Shown here in pieces: positions 8,029 through 36,563 of a stretch of DNA of 64,000 nt. The notes beneath the pieces are model-generated. The model made no database searches. It was not told the DNA's origin and saw only the letters and a program-made list of their open reading frames with translations. Location: the NCBI RefSeq assembly GCF_002250115.1, contig NZ_CP019985.1:1984001-2048000 (forward strand). Direction: 5' to 3'. Positions within the stretch are counted from its first letter, which is position 1. Every line of letters begins with the position of its first letter. The DNA is from Shouchella clausii (GTDB lineage Bacteria > Bacillota > Bacilli > Bacillales > Bacillaceae_D). The translations under genes and the position numbers were made by a program.

Positions 8029-8209
8029 GGTGCGAACCCCAAGCGCACATAAAATCACTAGATCACCCGCACCGAAAAAGAGTCTGAATATGAGTAAATG
8101 AGTATGAAAATGTGAAAATGTGGTTTATGTTCCTTGATATAATGAAGGGAAAGCGCGACTTTCCTATTTTATCTGTGGTTTTATTTCCAGCAAATAGGGG
8201 ACTTTCGCT
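8029..8209 (+). promoter_or_regulatory. CRISPR leader 1
   Basis: 181 bp from a conserved 45-bp element (8029-8073, starting GGTGCGAACCCCAAGCGCAC and ending CACCCGCACC) to the first repeat. A likely extended -10 promoter (TGATATAAT, -10 at 8138-8143) would drive the pre-crRNA. The last bases, AAATAGGGGACTTTCGCT, abut repeat 1 and are nearly the same in all five leaders. Leader and array orientation agree with the degenerate repeat at the far end. Confidence 0.85.
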
Positions 8210-8530
8210 GTCGCACTCTTCGTGAGTGCGTGGATTGAAATGGGACATTTGCCGTATAACCCGCCGCCCGCAAATCGTCGCACTCTTCGTGAGTGCGTGG
8301 ATTGAAATGAGGATTTATTCGGCAATGAATCGCCTATGATGTAGTCGCACTCTACGTGAGTGCGTGGATTGAAATTAAAAAGGTAGCTCACTTTTGTCCT
8401 TTATGTGGAGTCGCACTCTACGTGAGTGCGTGGATTGAAATATTGAATACAGCATTACATTCATTGAAGAACCTTTGTCGCACTCTACGTGAGTGCGTGG
8501 TGGAATGTCAACACAAAACTGGACAAATTT

Positions 8531-9361
8531 TTAAAGGTGTAAGGCTTTGTAATCGACGGGTGATTGATAGTCGAGTGAACCATGGAGGCGTATATGGTTG
8601 AACCAATGAACATAATCAAATAAAGCAAGGTCAAGTTCGTGTTGGTTAGGGAAAACCCTTCTCGATACAAACTCAATTTTAATCGCTTTAAAGGTGGCTT
8701 CTGCGACGGCGTTGTCATACGGCGTGCCTTTGTTGCTGAGCGAACGGGCGATTCCAAAGGTCGCTAGTGTCTGGTCCATCTTCTGATTGATAAACTCTCT
8801 ACCACGATCGGTATGAAACAGAGCGATCTTCTGTAAGGGATAGGGAATTTTAGCGATGGCTTGTCCCACGAGCTCCTTATTCTTGTTTGGACCAGAACTG
8901 TAACCGATGATTTCACGGTTGTATAGATCAATGATGATACAAATATAATGCCAGTTTGCACCGACCCGCACATACGTTAGGTCGCTGACGACTACGGTTA
9001 GCGCTTTTTCTTGTTGGAACTTCCGGTCAAGGGTATTCCCTATTTCCGATTCGTTGCACACGAATTTCGTTGGTTTAAATTGGGCCACCGTGTACGTGGA
9101 TACAAGTCCTTGTGCCTTCATGATCCGGCCAATGCGGCGGCGTGAAACCGTCCACCCTTGTTTAGTAAGTTCTTTTTTGATTTTGCGCTGGCCATAGATG
9201 CCTCGGCTCTGACGAAAAAGGTCGCTGATCAATGCGGTCAGCTGTTCTTCCTCTTCTTCGTGATCCCGTTGCTTGGCTTCATAATAAAACGTGCTACGGG
9301 GGATGTTCAAAATCGCACACATGGCAGCCACTGGGTAGATCCCGCGATTTTGACGGATCAC
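8531..9361 (-). CDS. IS3-family transposase OrfB (DDE integrase), copy 1
   Basis: 276 residues, the counterpart of 18565-19395. It contains an HTH_21 segment (RGIYGQRKIKKELTKQGWTV) and an rve integrase core with the DDE residues in VVSDLTYV, FHTDRGREF and AVAEATFK. The start codon is GTG, but in IS3 elements OrfB is normally made as an OrfAB fusion by -1 frameshifting. The frame is open further upstream only because of the orfA deletion. With OrfA destroyed, a functional OrfAB cannot be produced from this copy. Confidence 0.9.
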   Translation of the reverse strand: MIRQNRGIYPVAAMCAILNIPRSTFYYEAKQRDHEEEEEQLTALISDLFRQSRGIYGQRKIKKELTKQGWTVSRRRIGRIMKAQGLVSTYTVAQFKPTKFVCNESEIGNTLDRKFQQEKALTVVVSDLTYVRVGANWHYICIIIDLYNREIIGYSSGPNKNKELVGQAIAKIPYPLQKIALFHTDRGREFINQKMDQTLATFGIARSLSNKGTPYDNAVAEATFKAIKIEFVSRRVFPNQHELDLALFDYVHWFNHIRLHGSLDYQSPVDYKALHL

Positions 9362-9395
9362 GTCTATTTTCGTCCCATGATCAGCGCCGCTTGCT

Positions 9396-9485
9396 TTAAA
9401 ATATCTTTCCGGACGCATACAGTTGCACAAGCTGTTTCTTAAATTCGGCTGTGAACCTTCTTCGTGGACGTTTGGCTTCAGTCAT
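9396..9485 (-). pseudogene. IS3-family orfA remnant, copy 1
   Basis: Starts like the intact OrfA at 18272 (MTEAKRPRRRFTAEFKKQLV...) but lacks the bases equivalent to 18353-18521. The junction GGAAAG/ATATTTTAA has at most one base of microhomology and shifts the frame, giving a stop after 29 codons. The leucine-zipper half and the frameshift context are separated from the start, so OrfA function is lost. Confidence 0.88.
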
Positions 9486-10027
9486 GATATCCCGATCCCT
9501 TCATTGGATGATTCCATCTAGTCTAGTAGACCTTAGAGCATTTGTCCAACTAAGTGTAACCTATCCATGGATTGAAATAATGGAAGCAGTAGTGTTTCCG
9601 CCTTTTCTAGGTCGTCGCACTCTACGTGAGTGCGTGGATTGAAATGCCGCTATTCGTTAGCTTGCCTTGCCCCGCGAAGGTCGCACTCTACGTGAGTGCG
9701 TGGATTGAAATTACAGTAGGGATGAAACCGAACGTCTTGGCCTGAGTCGCACTCTACGTGAGTGCGTGGATTGAAATCATATAGTCCTGCCAGAAAATTT
9801 TCAGGATGTCCGGTCGCACTCTTCGTGAGTGCGTGGATTGAAATCCGTTTTTAACATAATCCATCATGATGCGCTGAAAGTCGCACTCTATGTGAGTGCG
9901 TGGAAAATGTGGGCTTAAGATCCTTGCACGGTGTGGCTGTGTTTCCCCCATCTTATAAGTGCGCCAATTAACATCCACATGAATCGACGTTCGCTTGCGA
10001 TAACAACTAATAAAGGTACAGAAAACC

Positions 10028-16277: not shown

Positions 16278-18271
16278 GTCGCACTCCTTGTGAGTGCGTG
16301 GATTGAAATGTTAATGTCCGCGCTCTTACCGCACTTATTACATGTCGCACTCCTTGTGAGTGCGTGGATTGAAATACTCATTTCGGCAGTCTTAGCGCCT
16401 GTCGTCTCCGGTCGCACTCCTTGTGAGTGCGTGGATTGAAATACTATACTCGCTCCTTTATCACGCCAATGGCGCTTGTCGCACTCCTTGTGAGTGCGTG
16501 GATTGAAATCGACAAAAAAGCGCCCGCCTGCGCCACTAGCGCTGTCGCACTCCTTGTGAGTGCGTGGATTGAAATATGTAGACACATTAATTCGCGCGCT
16601 ATACATCGGGTCGCACTCCTTGTGAGTGCGTGGATTGAAATATTCAGAATTATGTCAGTATATCCAACAACTACGTCGCACTCCTTGTGAGTGCGTGGAT
16701 TGAAATCGGGAAAGGGTGTTCATTATCGGACATCTTAGAGGTCGCACTCCTTGTGAGTGCGTGGATTGAAATTGCAATCGAAGAACTCACAAAGCGTCGC
16801 GATGGTGTCGCACTCCTTGTGAGTGCGTGGATTGAAATATCATGTTAATGTCGTTTAACGAGTCGCCGCACTCGTCGCACTCCTTGTGAGTGCGTGGATT
16901 GAAATGATCAGGAAACGGAGCGCACAGCCCGCAAAATGGTCGCACTCCTTGTGAGTGCGTGGATTGAAATGCCTCCTTGCCTTTTATAAAGCGTTTTTCT
17001 TTGCGCGTCGCACTCCTTGTGAGTGCGTGGATTGAAATCGTTTCGATTTAAGGGATTCTCACCCACGCCAAGTCGCACTCCTTGTGAGTGCGTGGATTGA
17101 AATTATATGAAGACTCAGTATAACGTATTTGTTAACGTCGCACTCCTTGTGAGTGCGTGGATTGAAATGGAAATGGATAAAAAAAGTCATGCGAAATCCA
17201 TGTCGCACTCCTTGTGAGTGCGTGGATTGAAATCGCGCGCTTGGCCGGCCGCAGCTCGCGCCCTCCGGTCGCACTCCTTGTGAGTGCGTGGATTGAAATA
17301 AAAATCGGAGGCCGTTCCGTTGATCGTCTCAGCGTCGCACTCCTTGTGAGTGCGTGGATTGAAATGCCGACGCCTATACATGAAGTGCCGGGAGGGCCGT
17401 CGCACTCCTTGTGAGTGCGTGGATTGAAATACCAGCTACCCAATCACTAAACCTTTCCGCCTCCGTCGCACTCCTTGTGAGTGCGTGGATTGAAATTCTT
17501 TACAAGTTTGTTTTTATTGAGTGCTTGTGGGTCGCACTCCTTGTGAGTGCGTGGATTGAAATTCTTGCTTATTTGCAATGTTAGGTGGTGTCCATCGTCG
17601 CACTCCTTGTGAGTGCGTGGATTGAAATGCGGAGGAAGGGGACGTCATCGAACTTGAGGCGCGTCGCACTCCTTGTGAGTGCGTGGATTGAAATAAAGCT
17701 GAACGGACAGTCAGGTAAATTACGCTCGTCGCACTCCTTGTGAGTGCGTGGATTGAAATTCTACCTTACCCCTTGTCTTTAGCTGCCCCTCAGTCGCACT
17801 CCTTGTGAGTGCGTGGATTGAAATAAAGCTGAACGGACAGTCAGGTAAATTACGCTCGTCGCACTCCTTGTGAGTGCGTGGATTGAAATTCTACCTTACC
17901 CCTTGTCTTTAGCTGCCCCTCAGTCGCACTCCTTGTGAGTGCGTGGATTGAAATACAAAAGACTAGCAACAGTGTCACAGACAGAAACGGTCGCACTCCT
18001 TGTGAGTGCGTGGATTGAAATTCTGGTCGTTTCAACGCCTTCAGGGGGGTTTCATGTCGCACTCCTTGTGAGTGCGTGGATTGAAATTCAACTCGCGCTC
18101 AGTACGAAAATCAAAAGGCTCTGTCGCACTCCTTGTGAGTGCGTGGATTGAAATTTTAGTAGCCTTACGGAACCGGCCGAAATTTTCGTTGGATAGGTTA
18201 CACTTAGTTGGACAAATGCTCTAAGGTCTACTAGACTAGATGGAATCATCCAATGAAGGGATCGGGATATC

Positions 18272-18562
18272 ATGACTGAAGCCAAACGTCCACGAAGAAG
18301 GTTCACAGCCGAATTTAAGAAACAGCTTGTGCAACTGTATGCGTCCGGAAAGCCGAGAGCGGAAATCATCCGTGAATATGAACTGACGCCATCTGCTTTT
18401 GATAAATGGGTTCGTCAATACCAAACAAGTGGCGCATTCACCGAGAAAGAAAATCGTACGCCTGAACAAGAAGAGCTGATCCGCCTACGAAAAGAAAACC
18501 AGAAGCTCGCTATGGAAAATGATATTTTAAAGCAAGCGGCGCTGATCATGGGACGAAAATAG
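18272..18562 (+). CDS. IS3-family transposase OrfA
   Basis: 96 residues. The N-terminal helix-turn-helix (FTAEFKKQLVQLYASGKPRAEIIREYELTPSAFDKWV) binds the IS ends. The C-terminal leucine-zipper-like helix (EELIRLRKENQKLAMENDILKQAA) is for oligomerisation. It ends at CGA AAA TAG, where a -1 shift would join it to orfB. The full-length OrfAB fusion would be the transposase. Confidence 0.92.
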   Translation: MTEAKRPRRRFTAEFKKQLVQLYASGKPRAEIIREYELTPSAFDKWVRQYQTSGAFTEKENRTPEQEELIRLRKENQKLAMENDILKQAALIMGRK

Positions 18563-18564
18563 AC

Positions 18565-19395
18565 GTGATCCGTCAAAATCGCGGGATCTACCCAGTGGCT
18601 GCCATGTGTGCGATTTTGAACATCCCCCGTAGCACGTTTTATTATGAAGCCAAGCAACGGGATCACGAAGAAGAGGAAGAACAGCTGACCGCATTGATCA
18701 GCGACCTTTTTCGTCAGAGCCGAGGCATCTATGGCCAGCGCAAAATCAAAAAAGAACTTACTAAACAAGGGTGGACGGTTTCACGCCGCCGCATTGGCCG
18801 GATCATGAAGGCACAAGGACTTGTATCCACGTACACGGTGGCCCAATTTAAACCAACGAAATTCGTGTGCAACGAATCGGAAATAGGGAATACCCTTGAC
18901 CGGAAGTTCCAACAAGAAAAAGCGCTAACCGTAGTCGTCAGCGACCTAACGTATGTGCGGGTCGGTGCAAACTGGCATTATATTTGTATCATCATTGATC
19001 TATACAACCGTGAAATCATCGGTTACAGTTCTGGTCCAAACAAGAATAAGGAGCTCGTGGGACAAGCCATCGCTAAAATTCCCTATCCCTTACAGAAGAT
19101 CGCTCTGTTTCATACCGATCGTGGTAGAGAGTTTATCAATCAGAAGATGGACCAGACACTAGCGACCTTTGGAATCGCCCGTTCGCTCAGCAACAAAGGC
19201 ACGCCGTATGACAACGCCGTCGCAGAAGCCACCTTTAAAGCGATTAAAATTGAGTTTGTATCGAGAAGGGTTTTCCCTAACCAACACGAACTTGACCTTG
19301 CTTTATTTGATTATGTTCATTGGTTCAACCATATACGCCTCCATGGTTCACTCGACTATCAATCACCCGTCGATTACAAAGCCTTACACCTTTAA
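18565..19395 (+). CDS. IS3-family transposase OrfB (DDE integrase), copy 2
   Basis: 276 residues counted from GTG. It has an HTH_21 region, then the rve core with Asp in VVSDLTYV, Asp in FHTDRGREF and Glu in NAVAEATFK (often NAVMES in relatives). The frame lies at -1 relative to orfA and overlaps its end, consistent with programmed frameshifting. The reading frame is intact, so this copy may be active. Confidence 0.93.
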   Translation: MIRQNRGIYPVAAMCAILNIPRSTFYYEAKQRDHEEEEEQLTALISDLFRQSRGIYGQRKIKKELTKQGWTVSRRRIGRIMKAQGLVSTYTVAQFKPTKFVCNESEIGNTLDRKFQQEKALTVVVSDLTYVRVGANWHYICIIIDLYNREIIGYSSGPNKNKELVGQAIAKIPYPLQKIALFHTDRGREFINQKMDQTLATFGIARSLSNKGTPYDNAVAEATFKAIKIEFVSRRVFPNQHELDLALFDYVHWFNHIRLHGSLDYQSPVDYKALHL

Positions 19396-20447
19396 AAATT
19401 TGTCCAGTTTTGTGTTGACATTCCACGTCGCACTCCTTGTGAGTGCGTGGATTGAAATTTTTGTGTAAGCAATAAGCGCACGAACAACCATGGTCGCACT
19501 CCTTGTGAGTGCGTGGATTGAAATGCGAGTTCCATCGAACGCCTCAGCGAATGGTAATGTCGCACTCCTTGTGAGTGCGTGGATTGAAATACGAACGCGC
19601 TGAAAGAACAGATTATGCGGAACACGTCGCACTCCTTGTGAGTGCGTGGATTGAAATTGAGCTTACCGGACTAGTTAACACTTGGGCGATAGGTCGCACT
19701 CCTTGTGAGTGCGTGGATTGAAATAAGGATGCGGTGCTTGAAAAAGGAGATGACGCTAGAGTCGCACTCCTTGTGAGTGCGTGGATTGAAATTTATCTTC
19801 TTGACTTCGGGAGCGGGACCATATCTCGTCGCACTCCTTGTGAGTGCGTGGATTGAAATGCCAATTGAGTCCGTCTATATAGCTGCGGACAATGACGTCG
19901 CACTCCTTGTGAGTGCGTGGATTGAAATGTTGCAAATATGAAGCTCTTTCCAACACATATCTGTCGCACTCCTTGTGAGTGCGTGGATTGAAATCAATAC
20001 AAAAAGCCTGTCCAAGTAGCTAGACTGGGTCGCACTCCTTGTGAGTGCGTGGATTGAAATTCTAAAGGTGTACCACATTTACGAGAGGAGCTAGAGTCGC
20101 ACTCCTTGTGAGTGCGTGGATTGAAATAAATAAATGGCCCGCACACCAAGTCAACAGCGCCGTCGCACTCCGTGAGTGCGTGGATTGAAATACATAACAG
20201 CTAGTGCAGCAAAACAGATTGTGCTGGTCGCACTCCATGTGAGTGCGTGGATTGAAATATGCCTTGAGACTTTGCCCCCTGGGTTAGAGAGCAGGCCCCT
20301 ATGCGCTGTTTCCTCATCCATCTTGAGGTAAAGCTGTCCTTTTTTCTGGAATCTTACAATTTCCATGCCTGCCAAAATGGAGCGACCGTTTTTATTGCTG
20401 TGATTAGTGTTAATAGAAAAAATGACTAGCTACAGGAGGAAGCGAAA

Positions 20448-27505: not shown

Positions 27506-28788
27506 GTCGCACTCTGTGTGAGTGCGTGGATTGAAATCCACAAGGTCGAGACATTCGAACGGAACGATTCGGTCGCACTCTGTGTGAGTGCGTGGATTGA
27601 AATGTATCTCGGCAAATAAGTCGCCCGCCGCCGCACGTCGCACTCTGTGTGAGTGCGTGGATTGAAATAGGTTGTGTCGGAAATGTGTGGAAGAACTTAA
27701 CGTCGCACTCTGTGTGAGTGCGTGGATTGAAATGCGCCTCGTCCTCGGAATAAACGGGACGCTTGTGTCGCACTCTGTGTGAGTGCGTGGATTGAAATCC
27801 TACCAAAGCCAAAGGGCCAAACTAGTGATAAGTCGCACTCTGTGTGAGTGCGTGGATTGAAATGACCAAGTATCCGTTGAGGTGTTATCTACCATCACGT
27901 CGCACTCTGTGTGAGTGCGTGGATTGAAATATGTCAATTCCCGGACAAGCAGTGCTCGCGCCCGTCGCACTCTGTGTGAGTGCGTGGATTGAAATTAATT
28001 GATCTGCCGGACATACTCGCGCTAAAACGTAGTCGCACTCTGTGTGAGTGCGTGGATTGAAATGACGTTACCGTCCGCGCGACGTTTAACACGAAAGTCG
28101 CACTCTGTGTGAGTGCGTGGATTGAAATTAACCGCGGGCATGGAGATCGTGCACACGCTCAGTCGCACTCTGTGTGAGTGCGTGGATTGAAATAACGGTA
28201 AAGTGGACGAATCGGATGCGGTGAGACAGTCGCACTCTGTGTGAGTGCGTGGATTGAAATATTGTTATTTATCGGGATCGCCTTTTTAGATATGCGTCGC
28301 ACTCTGTGTGAGTGCGTGGATTGAAATCAGAAAGTCAAAAATTACGAAAACCGAACACTCTAGTCGCACTCTGTGTGAGTGCGTGGATTGAAATGTAAGT
28401 CTTGCCCGTCTCACGCGCCAGCTCCATGTCGCACTCTGTGTGAGTGCGTGGATTGAAATGGCATGCCTACGTCTCCTTGTACAGTATCAAGCAGTCGCAC
28501 TCTGTGTGAGTGCGTGGATTGAAATGAGGAAATCAATAACGCTCCACAAACGTTTTCTGTCGCACTCTGTGTGAGTGCGTGGATTGAAATGCTCACTCCT
28601 CCGTGTCTCCATTTCGGTCGCTACGTCGCACTCTGTGTAGTGCGTGGATTGAAATTGCTGCAAAATCGTTCTATCACCTGATGCCTGATTGTCGCACTCT
28701 GTGTGAGTGCGTGGATTGAAATCAGTAAGGAGGAGTAGTGTCATGAAACATGATTTGTCGCACTCTTCATGACTGCATGGATTGCACC
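27506..28788 (+). CRISPR. CRISPR array 3
   Basis: Nineteen good repeats (27506 to 28691) plus a decayed terminal one at 28757-28788; nineteen spacers of about 33-36 bp. The variable loop bases are TGTG throughout. The repeat at 28625 has lost one G of the stem (GTGTAGTGCG). The terminal copy reads TTCA in the loop and has several substitutions (CTGCATGGATTGCACC). Confidence 0.97.
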
Positions 28789-32611: not shown

Positions 32612-33042
32612 GTCGCACTCTTAGTGAGTGCGTGGATTGAAATTCGCGTAATAAATCGTCTTAATCCCCTTATGATGTCGCACTCTTAGTGAGTGCGTGG
32701 ATTGAAATATCCATACATTTCGGTCGTTCCGACACAGGCTGCGGTCGCACTCTTAGTGAGTGCGTGGATTGAAATCGCTCAGGATGTCCCCAACCCCTAC
32801 TGTTTTAAGGTCGCACTCTTAGTGAGTGCGTGGATTGAAATATACAAGGATTTAAGGAAATAGATAAACACTATTGCGTCGCACTCTTAGTGAGTGCGTG
32901 GATTGAAATCCTGACTTTTTAATCATGCCATATCCGGTAAAAAGTCGCACTCTTAGTGAGTGCGTGGATTGAAATTCAACGTAGTCATGGAACTCTGCAA
33001 ACGTCGTAGCGTCGCACTCCTTGTGAGTGTGTGAATTAACCA
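32612..33042 (+). CRISPR. CRISPR array 4
   Basis: The shortest array: six good repeats (32612, 32677, 32744, 32810, 32878, 32944) and a decayed terminal one (33011-33042), with six spacers. The variable loop bases are TTAG. The terminal repeat instead has CTTG, the loop of array 2, and a damaged 3' end (GTGTGTGAATTAAC). Confidence 0.96.
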
Positions 33043-35470: not shown

Positions 35471-36563
35471 GTCGCACTCTTAATGAGTGCGTGGATTGAA
35501 ATATTCCTTTGCCCCCTCTAGTAATCGCTTCGAAATGTCGCACTCTTAATGAGTGCGTGGATTGAAATCGGGATTACCTATACGCAGGATGACGCAAAGC
35601 TGAGTCGCACTCTTAATGAGTGCGTGGATTGAAATGTAGCTGAAATTTCCCTTCCTTTCGATGTGTTGAGTCGCACTCTTAATGAGTGCGTGGATTGAAA
35701 TTCTCCTATTATTTTTTTATTAATCTACTTATCATGTCGCACTCTTAATGAGTGCGTGGATTGAAATGCCAAATATGTCGTGATAGTAACGTTTTAGAGC
35801 GGTCGCACTCTTAATGAGTGCGTGGATTGAAATTTGTGTCATGTCGTTATTAATCCCAAGTTGCTTGGTCGCACTCTTAATGAGTGCGTGGATTGAAATT
35901 GCTACAAAGGGCGAGAAGTCCTTAAAAGACCTAAGTCGCACTCTTAATGAGTGCGTGGATTGAAATACGCCTGCCAAGCCATCGAAGCGTAACGCCAAGT
36001 CGCACTCTTAATGAGTGCGTGGATTGAAATAACGGTATCTCAGCGTCCTGACTACGTACCTTGGTCGCACTCTTAATGAGTGCGTGGATTGAAATAGCAT
36101 ATCTTCAACAGATTTTCGAAGCGTCATCGTCGCACTCTTAATGAGTGCGTGGATTGAAATAAGAGAGGAAAACACTGAAAAAGAAAAAGGGGATGGTCGC
36201 ACTCTTAATGAGTGCGTGGATTGAAATCTATCGAGGACGTTGTTAAGATAACTAAGGACTAAGTCGCACTCTTAATGAGTGCGTGGATTGAAATTCTTTG
36301 TCTGCTAGGCTGTCTAACGGCGGTTCAATCAGTCGCACTCTTAATGAGTGCGTGGATTGAAATAAATAATTGATAAATTAAGCAGCTAAAAAGATAAAGT
36401 CGCACTCTTAATGAGTGCGTGGATTGAAATGTAATAGCGTGGCCGCATCTGAAAAGGCTGTTAGTGTCGCACTCTTAATGAGTGCGTGGATTGAAATTGC
36501 TTGATTACGGCGTCTGACATCATGCCGTCACGTCACACTCTTCGTAAGTGCGTGCTCGTTCGT
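35471..36563 (+). CRISPR. CRISPR array 5
   Basis: Sixteen good repeats (35471 to 36466) with TTAA as the variable loop bases, and a decayed terminal one (36532-36563). Sixteen spacers of about 33-36 bp. The terminal copy has TTCG in the loop, GTCACACTC in place of GTCGCACTC, and has lost the GGATTGAAAT end. Confidence 0.97.

Follow-up and report, generated by a model that had tools for sequence, protein, structure and literature searches.

Loop types along a CRISPR array of Shouchella clausii point to copying of the leader-end repeat

Introduction

The ten repeats of a CRISPR array in Shouchella clausii (array 1) differ in the loop of their hairpin and, read from the leader outward, the loops are TTCG, TTCG, six times TACG, TTCG and finally TATG. 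Does such an order record the history of the array, and if so, which history? In a passage on repeat variants, Touchon and Rocha 2010 (PMC2886076) take stretches of conserved variants to suggest that a new repeat duplicates the adjacent one. In an experimental section on the type I-F system of Legionella pneumophila, Deecker and Ensminger 2020 (PMC7056967) describe a refilled array that took the sequence of the remaining repeat. Terminal-repeat variants are covered in part of a review (PMC8047081), and the integration of spacers within an array is described for Streptococcus thermophilus in a passage of PMC5338259. Among the papers listed for Bacillus/Shouchella clausii and CRISPR, our literature search found one genome announcement, whose passage on the subject mentions CRISPR cassettes without further detail (PMC4841126); in the relevant part of a Shouchella editing paper CRISPR figures as a tool only (PMC12885165).

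Results

Array 1 and the other arrays of the genome

The window, by which we mean the whole stretch of 64,000 nucleotides analysed, corresponds to positions 1,984,001-2,048,000 of a 4,517,459-bp single-contig genome (G000 below). Its five CRISPR arrays share the repeat GTCGCACTC-NNNNN-GAGTGCGTGGATTGAAAT (Table 1), and the genome as a whole contains eight such arrays, all on the same strand, with 110 exact repeats. The arrays have the features of type I-C arrays, namely direct repeats of ~32 nt with a hairpin and an ATTGAAA tail, separated by regular spacers (32-37 nt here). A preliminary description of this locus had given the loop order of array 1 as quoted above, which was borne out exactly at all ten repeats, and had read the leader end as the newest. 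This polarity is right: the leader lies on the left of the array and is conserved with those of the other arrays. The repeat at the opposite end (9880) is a degenerate terminal repeat which has lost GATTGAAAT.

Table 1. Coordinates of array 1, its parts and the other arrays within the window
Feature	Position	Strand	Remarks
Array 1 leader	8030..8209	+	~180 bp; begins GTGCGAACCC, ends TTTCGCT; from leader alignment and sequence
Array 1	8210..9903	+	10 repeats
Repeat 1 (newest), loop TTCG	8210..8241	+	
Repeat 2, loop TTCG	8277..8308	+	
Repeats 3 and 4, loop TACG	8344..8441	+	starts at 8344 and 8410; intervening spacer included
Repeat 5, left part, loop TACG	8477..8500	+	interrupted by insertion sequence; right part from 9568, after duplicated TGG
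IS3-type insertion sequence within repeat 5	8501..9567	-	transposase ORF 8531-9430 with HTH_21 and rve domains
Repeats 6, 7 and 8, loop TACG	9614..9777	+	starts at 9614, 9680 and 9746; intervening spacers included
Repeat 9, single TTCG loop	9813..9844	+	best read as private mutation
Terminal repeat, loop TATG	9880..9903	+	3′ end truncated
Array 2	16278..20258	+	CTTG throughout, except in the repeat at 20162 (shortened loop) and in the last one (CATG)
Array 3	27506..28788	+	TGTG throughout; one-base loss in repeat at 28625; degenerate terminal repeat TTCA
Array 4	32612..33042	+	TTAG throughout; degenerate terminal repeat CTTG
Array 5	35471..36563	+	TTAA throughout; degenerate terminal repeat TTCG

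Arrays 2 to 5 each have one loop in the body and a different one at the leader-distal end, and therefore a change of loop over time is general in this genome. Bodies that mix at least two full-length loops are present in three of the eight arrays: array 1, the array at 1862787 (TTTG six times, TTAG, TATG twice) and that at 1877195 (TTTG eight times, TATG four times, TTTG, TATG), which has the same A-B-A look as array 1. Folding of eight loop variants yielded an identical 7-bp stem in every case (-10.4 to -11.7 kcal/mol). This provides no structural reason to switch, and we rejected a function driven by the loop, in the form of array-specific hairpins.

Repeat 5 of array 1 is cut after GTGCGTGG by the 1067-bp IS3-type element, which is flanked by 3-bp TGG duplications. 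A second copy of the same insertion sequence lies in array 2 (18190-19425, 1236 bp, target duplication CGT). The two copies are 99.9-100% identical across their shared parts, the one in array 1 being 169 bp shorter with a 4-base overlap at the joint. Both insertions look recent, and the element in array 1 would have split repeat 5 after the loop history considered below. Array 2 also contains two spacer units duplicated in tandem (17663-17954; 130-bp period, exact).

The same sites in four species

Comparison of the flanks places the arrays, with leaders of ~180 bp, at the same chromosomal sites in four core species, each represented by one genome: the present one, S. rhizosphaerae (G006, NZ_FRBS01000002), S. 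clausii AKU0647 (G010, NZ_BCXJ01000001) and S. tritolerans (G011, NZ_JAODPB010000001). The exceptions are site c, a relic in G011 that was not found in G010, and sites g and h, which look fused in G010; two arrays of G006 (at 579994 and on contig 7) have no assigned counterpart. The G010 array at 591977 combines the leader flank of site g with the trailer flank of site h and is likely to be a fusion through recombination between repeats. Array fusion thus probably occurs in this group, so that recombination can probably also produce blocks of loop types.

The first repeats differ between species outside the loop by 0-1 differences per 162-216 positions. Among 241 internal repeats of the four species there are 20 mismatches in 6,507 positions outside the loop, repeats with more than three mismatches being set aside; since the arrays were found via an intact repeat, decayed arrays are under-counted and this conservation is somewhat over-stated. 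In the five wider species pairs the divergence is 10-15% for leaders and 17-29% for loops. In the closest pair, G010 and G011, the leaders differ by 2.7% and the loops at one of 30 positions. The divergence table covers neither the missing or fused sites (c and h in G010, c in G011) nor the G011 array on contig 12. For the pairs that include G000, the loop difference is 25-29% against 10-11% in the leader (uncorrected p 0.003-0.018, the pairs not being independent); in the remaining wide pairs the two values are 17-20% and 14-15%. On these sequence comparisons the repeat outside the loop is almost frozen between species, and the loops change at about the pace of leader DNA or slightly above it. 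For most of the time in which the species diverged, the arrays would have remained in use, and their copying and probably their processing would have been under selection.

Both flanks of array 1 are found at the same site in all four species. The last recognisable repeat there carries a TATG loop in four of four, while the bodies have TACG/TTCG in G000, TTAG in G006 and TATG in G010 and G011. Next to this last repeat, the sequences of G000 and G010 align closely; those of G006 and G011 do so less well. Further out there is a repeat-like hairpin (CTTA or TTTA) in a more advanced state of decay. Because of this uneven alignment and the outer hairpin, we infer rather than observe that TATG was the founder loop of the site. 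Downstream of array 1, at 9950-9965, only the right half of this decayed hairpin is clear; its G010 counterpart near 573272 reads GCGCACTT-CTTAT-AAGTGCG. It could be the relic of an older repeat or have nothing to do with the array.

Shared spacers and leader-end copying

We compared 381 spacers from eight genomes, including eight of the nine spacers of array 1 (one beside the insertion sequence was left out). Four spacers are common to genomes at full or near-full length, all of them between G010 and G011, and one weaker pair with 27 matching bases connects different sites of G000 and G011. At site a, both spacers of G010 (s1 and s2) are the same as s7 and s8 of G011 and their flanking loops are identical (TATG, TTTG, TTTG). 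The switch between TATG and TTTG thus falls at the same spacer in both genomes, and TATG is the loop of all six extra repeats at the leader end of G011. A gain of six units in G011 could not be told apart from their loss in G010, but the switch maps to one spacer either way. At site b, the two species have only the oldest spacer in common (33 of 34 bases), in each case with TACG on one side and the terminal TATG on the other, and the younger, unshared spacers (six in G010, five in G011) are all situated between TACG repeats. At site e, where decayed repeats flank the fourth shared spacer, the loops agree as well. The loops therefore agree at shared spacers and the inherited loop is found at unshared ones, as leader-end copying predicts. 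No genome sharing the spacers of array 1 was found among the eight genomes, with eight of its nine spacers compared, and its own switch is thus unmapped.

Statistics of the loop order

Taken by itself, array 1 has too few repeats for a runs test, which counts three changes (p = 0.06), or two without the terminal repeat (p = 0.11). In 19 Shouchella arrays with mixed internal loops, 32 changes were observed against 55.2 ± 3.6 after shuffling (p ≤ 5e-5); this test left out the site c relic and the contig 12 array of G011, three stray distant matches and the shortened-loop repeat of array 2. We also fitted a hidden-state model with two rates, mu for mutation of the copied loop (per site and acquisition) and eps for private change in each repeat. 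The fit comprised 34 arrays with 301 repeats, without G007 and two arrays of fewer than three repeats, and the last member of each array was dropped; at three of the four array-1 sites this dropped 'terminal' member is the decayed repeat-like hairpin and not TATG. With mu = 0.020 and eps = 0.009 the log-likelihood was -377.2, compared to -419.9 without copying and -390.0 without private change, a cost of 42.7 and 12.8 log units, respectively. Restricting the fit to the four core species (29 arrays, 247 repeats) gave costs of 36.3 and 7.0 log units. The newest switch of array 1, from TACG to TTCG, is assigned to the copied state with a posterior of at least 0.986, on the strength of two repeats.

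A loop change between adjacent intact repeats occurs in 7 of 60 pairs from at least 14 Shouchella loci compared to 27 of 1,353 pairs from at least 104 loci in other genera (p = 4e-4 among the loci listed, where loci of one genome are not independent). Long runs without a switch are the 40 CTTG repeats in array 2 and the 80 repeats in G007, and because of these runs we suggest that switches count time rather than acquisitions. A faster-than-neutral change of the loops through mutation tied to integration is conceivable but was not adopted, in view of the same runs and of the loop and leader differences in the wide pairs that do not include G000. It is worth mentioning that, counting degenerate ends, the four core species have 46 block boundaries, 18 of which need at least two substitutions; simple point mutation does not predict this at the young end.

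Searches for the acquisition machinery

Searches for type I-C Cas1, Cas5c and Cas7c with PF01867, TIGR02589 and TIGR01876 gave no match (E ≤ 0.001) in the 4.52-Mb single contig, and Cas1 and Cas8c of G007 used as queries gave none there at E ≤ 1. For the Cas3 helicase there were six TIGR01587 matches, all below the curated cut-off; the same profile had matches in 14 of 14 control genomes and exceeded the cut-off in six. On these searches the genome cannot be credited with a complete type I-C CRISPR-Cas system. Within the genus, Cas1 was detected in three of 13 genomes and the present repeat in eight of 13. Of these eight, a type I-C operon adjoining the present repeat was observed in G007 alone, where Cas5c, Cas8c/Csd1, Cas7/Csd2, Cas4, Cas1c and Cas2 lie next to an array of 80 intact CTTG repeats with a degenerate terminal repeat. 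G000, G001, G002, G006, G010 and G012 carry the repeat and gave no Cas8c match, and their Cas1 matches are limited to a type I-B protein (G010) and a chance-level hit (G012). The chromosomal cas genes of G010 were rejected as the missing machinery, being of type I-B and beside a different repeat; a Cas1 with the same score is present in G011 at the corresponding place. A second operon of G011 was also rejected: its Cas8c and Cas1 are 41% and 55% identical to those of G007, yet it accompanies another repeat. Since the spacers of G010 and G011 are mostly different at a small leader divergence, acquisition would have continued until recently where matching cas genes are not seen now. Parallel loss of cas genes and supply in trans both fit this situation.

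Discussion

That loops are inherited through copying of the leader-end repeat is well supported. We regard it as very probable that leader-end duplication spreads loop mutations, that array 1 passed from TATG to TACG to TTCG and that the TTCG at 9813 is private. Each spacer addition would duplicate the leader-end repeat, and a tolerated substitution there would pass to all later repeats, while one in an interior repeat would stay alone. With selection holding the stem and the 3′ tail, the 5-base hairpin loop would be left to drift, which would give rise to blocks of loop types. Array 1 would have begun with an old TATG; a change to TACG would have been followed by about seven acquisitions and, later, a change to TTCG by one or two, and the TTCG at 9813 would have arisen by a later private A-to-T change. 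We infer the exact order of events at 9813. The copying would have been carried out by a Cas1-Cas2 not seen in this genome, and acquisition at array 1 has presumably stopped by now.

The preliminary description had proposed the same mechanism, in which copying of the first repeat passes the loops on, and this part holds up in the light of the loop blocks, the model and sites a and b. It is at these two sites, which are not that of array 1, that G010 and G011 provide the kind of comparison it had called for, of arrays that share old spacers and differ at the leader end, with the expected outcome. The change it had placed last, from TACG to TTCG, likewise fits copying. Its full history of array 1 included in addition an older, propagated TTCG state, so that the newest TTCG would be a true reversion, all by first-repeat copying. 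The loop order is what such a history would leave behind, and the TTCG at 9813 has a posterior of 0.75 as copied state if the terminal repeat is ignored. Moreover, about 20% of nine-repeat arrays simulated at the fitted rates show a returning loop type; a return pattern is therefore not rare. However, with the TATG terminal repeat included the posterior at 9813 drops to 0.016-0.32 across eight parameter sets, and we weigh this figure more because TATG is found at the site in four species. An older TTCG also requires four substitutions, compared to three for TATG to TACG to TTCG plus a private change at 9813. In the four core species, returns make up nine of 18 consecutive block triples, and five of these nine have a single middle repeat, as private mutation gives. 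The sole return with blocks of at least two repeats on all three sides occurs in the apparently fused G010 array at 591977, where the oldest block includes the degenerate terminal repeat. We consider this older TTCG state and the subsequent return unlikely.

Blocks of TTCG or TACG could also have been imported from another array or strain by recombination or gene conversion, through exchange between repeats or leaders. The apparent fusion of sites g and h in G010 is in favour of such events, as are the multi-base loop changes at some boundaries, for example CTTG beside TTCG at the newest end of the G010 array at 587285. On the other hand, the genome offers no donor with intact repeats: among its 110 exact repeats those with TTCG or TACG are confined to array 1, and the TTCG found elsewhere belongs to the degenerate terminal repeat of array 5. 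Furthermore, both flanks of array 1 have kept their place in four species and both of its TTCG/TACG switches are single-base changes, which makes an import very unlikely here. A collapse, in which spacers are lost by recombination between repeats and the array is rebuilt from one surviving repeat whose loop becomes fixed, has an experimental precedent in the Legionella study cited above. Full collapse predicts that all repeats equal the terminal one, but the body of array 1, with TACG and TTCG, does not match its terminal TATG; a partial collapse would leave no visible trace. We therefore regard collapse and refilling as highly improbable for array 1.

Leader-end copying has already been proposed, and experimentally supported, in other species, and the present arrays are a clear new example. 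They resemble the CRISPRs of E. coli and Salmonella as characterized in the relevant passages of PMC2886076, with stretches of variants and arrays at fixed places, and with the suggestion that CRISPRs might outlive cas genes. The two repeat sequences described there are other ones and show few deviations, whereas here the variation is concentrated in one hairpin loop and is array-specific; unlike in those passages, the inheritance was checked here between two species sharing spacers. In the Legionella type I-F experiments, too, the sequence of the one repeat left in place was taken over by the new ones, but that section of PMC7056967 deals with the refilling of an emptied array and not with stepwise drift along an intact one. 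CRISPR1 of Streptococcus agalactiae, in the part of PMC4466440 devoted to its repeats, is similar in having a degenerate terminal repeat that follows lineages and rare internal variants, with duplication at the leader end stated explicitly. It differs in being a type II-A array with cas genes, in which 98.5% of the internal repeats are identical.

From the loop blocks, the internal order of a CRISPR array and an approximate clock can be obtained without any need to recognise spacers. In this group they reveal inheritance at fixed sites of related species, the matching cas genes of which are not found now. Should the loops change at the neutral rate, counting switches per acquisition would separate slow from fast arrays, as in the contrast between array 2, with 40 CTTG repeats in a row, and array 1, with two or three switches in ten repeats. 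With considerable reserve, we can imagine that the arrays are long-lived acquisition sites which have no type I-C cas genes of their own genome and depend in trans on cas genes gained and lost among strains, the loop of each array being its own heritable mark that ticks at approximately the noncoding rate. In that rather doubtful case, loop switches per acquisition would be a clock of the growth of each array.

Matches of the spacers to phages

The two parts of array 1 each matched three 'Bacteriophage sp.' records of a phage collection, four distinct ones in all. We rejected these as targets, as the placing of the matching pieces points to CRISPR repeats within the records. Four 22-base spacer starts, from four of the nine array 1 spacers, had no exact match in viral contigs. 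With the first part of array 2, 18 of the best 20 of 214 phage records match at 16703-16741, a spacer with its edges, at 92-95% identity, and most of these matches are to DNA methylase or methyltransferase genes of Streptococcus and Lactococcus phages.
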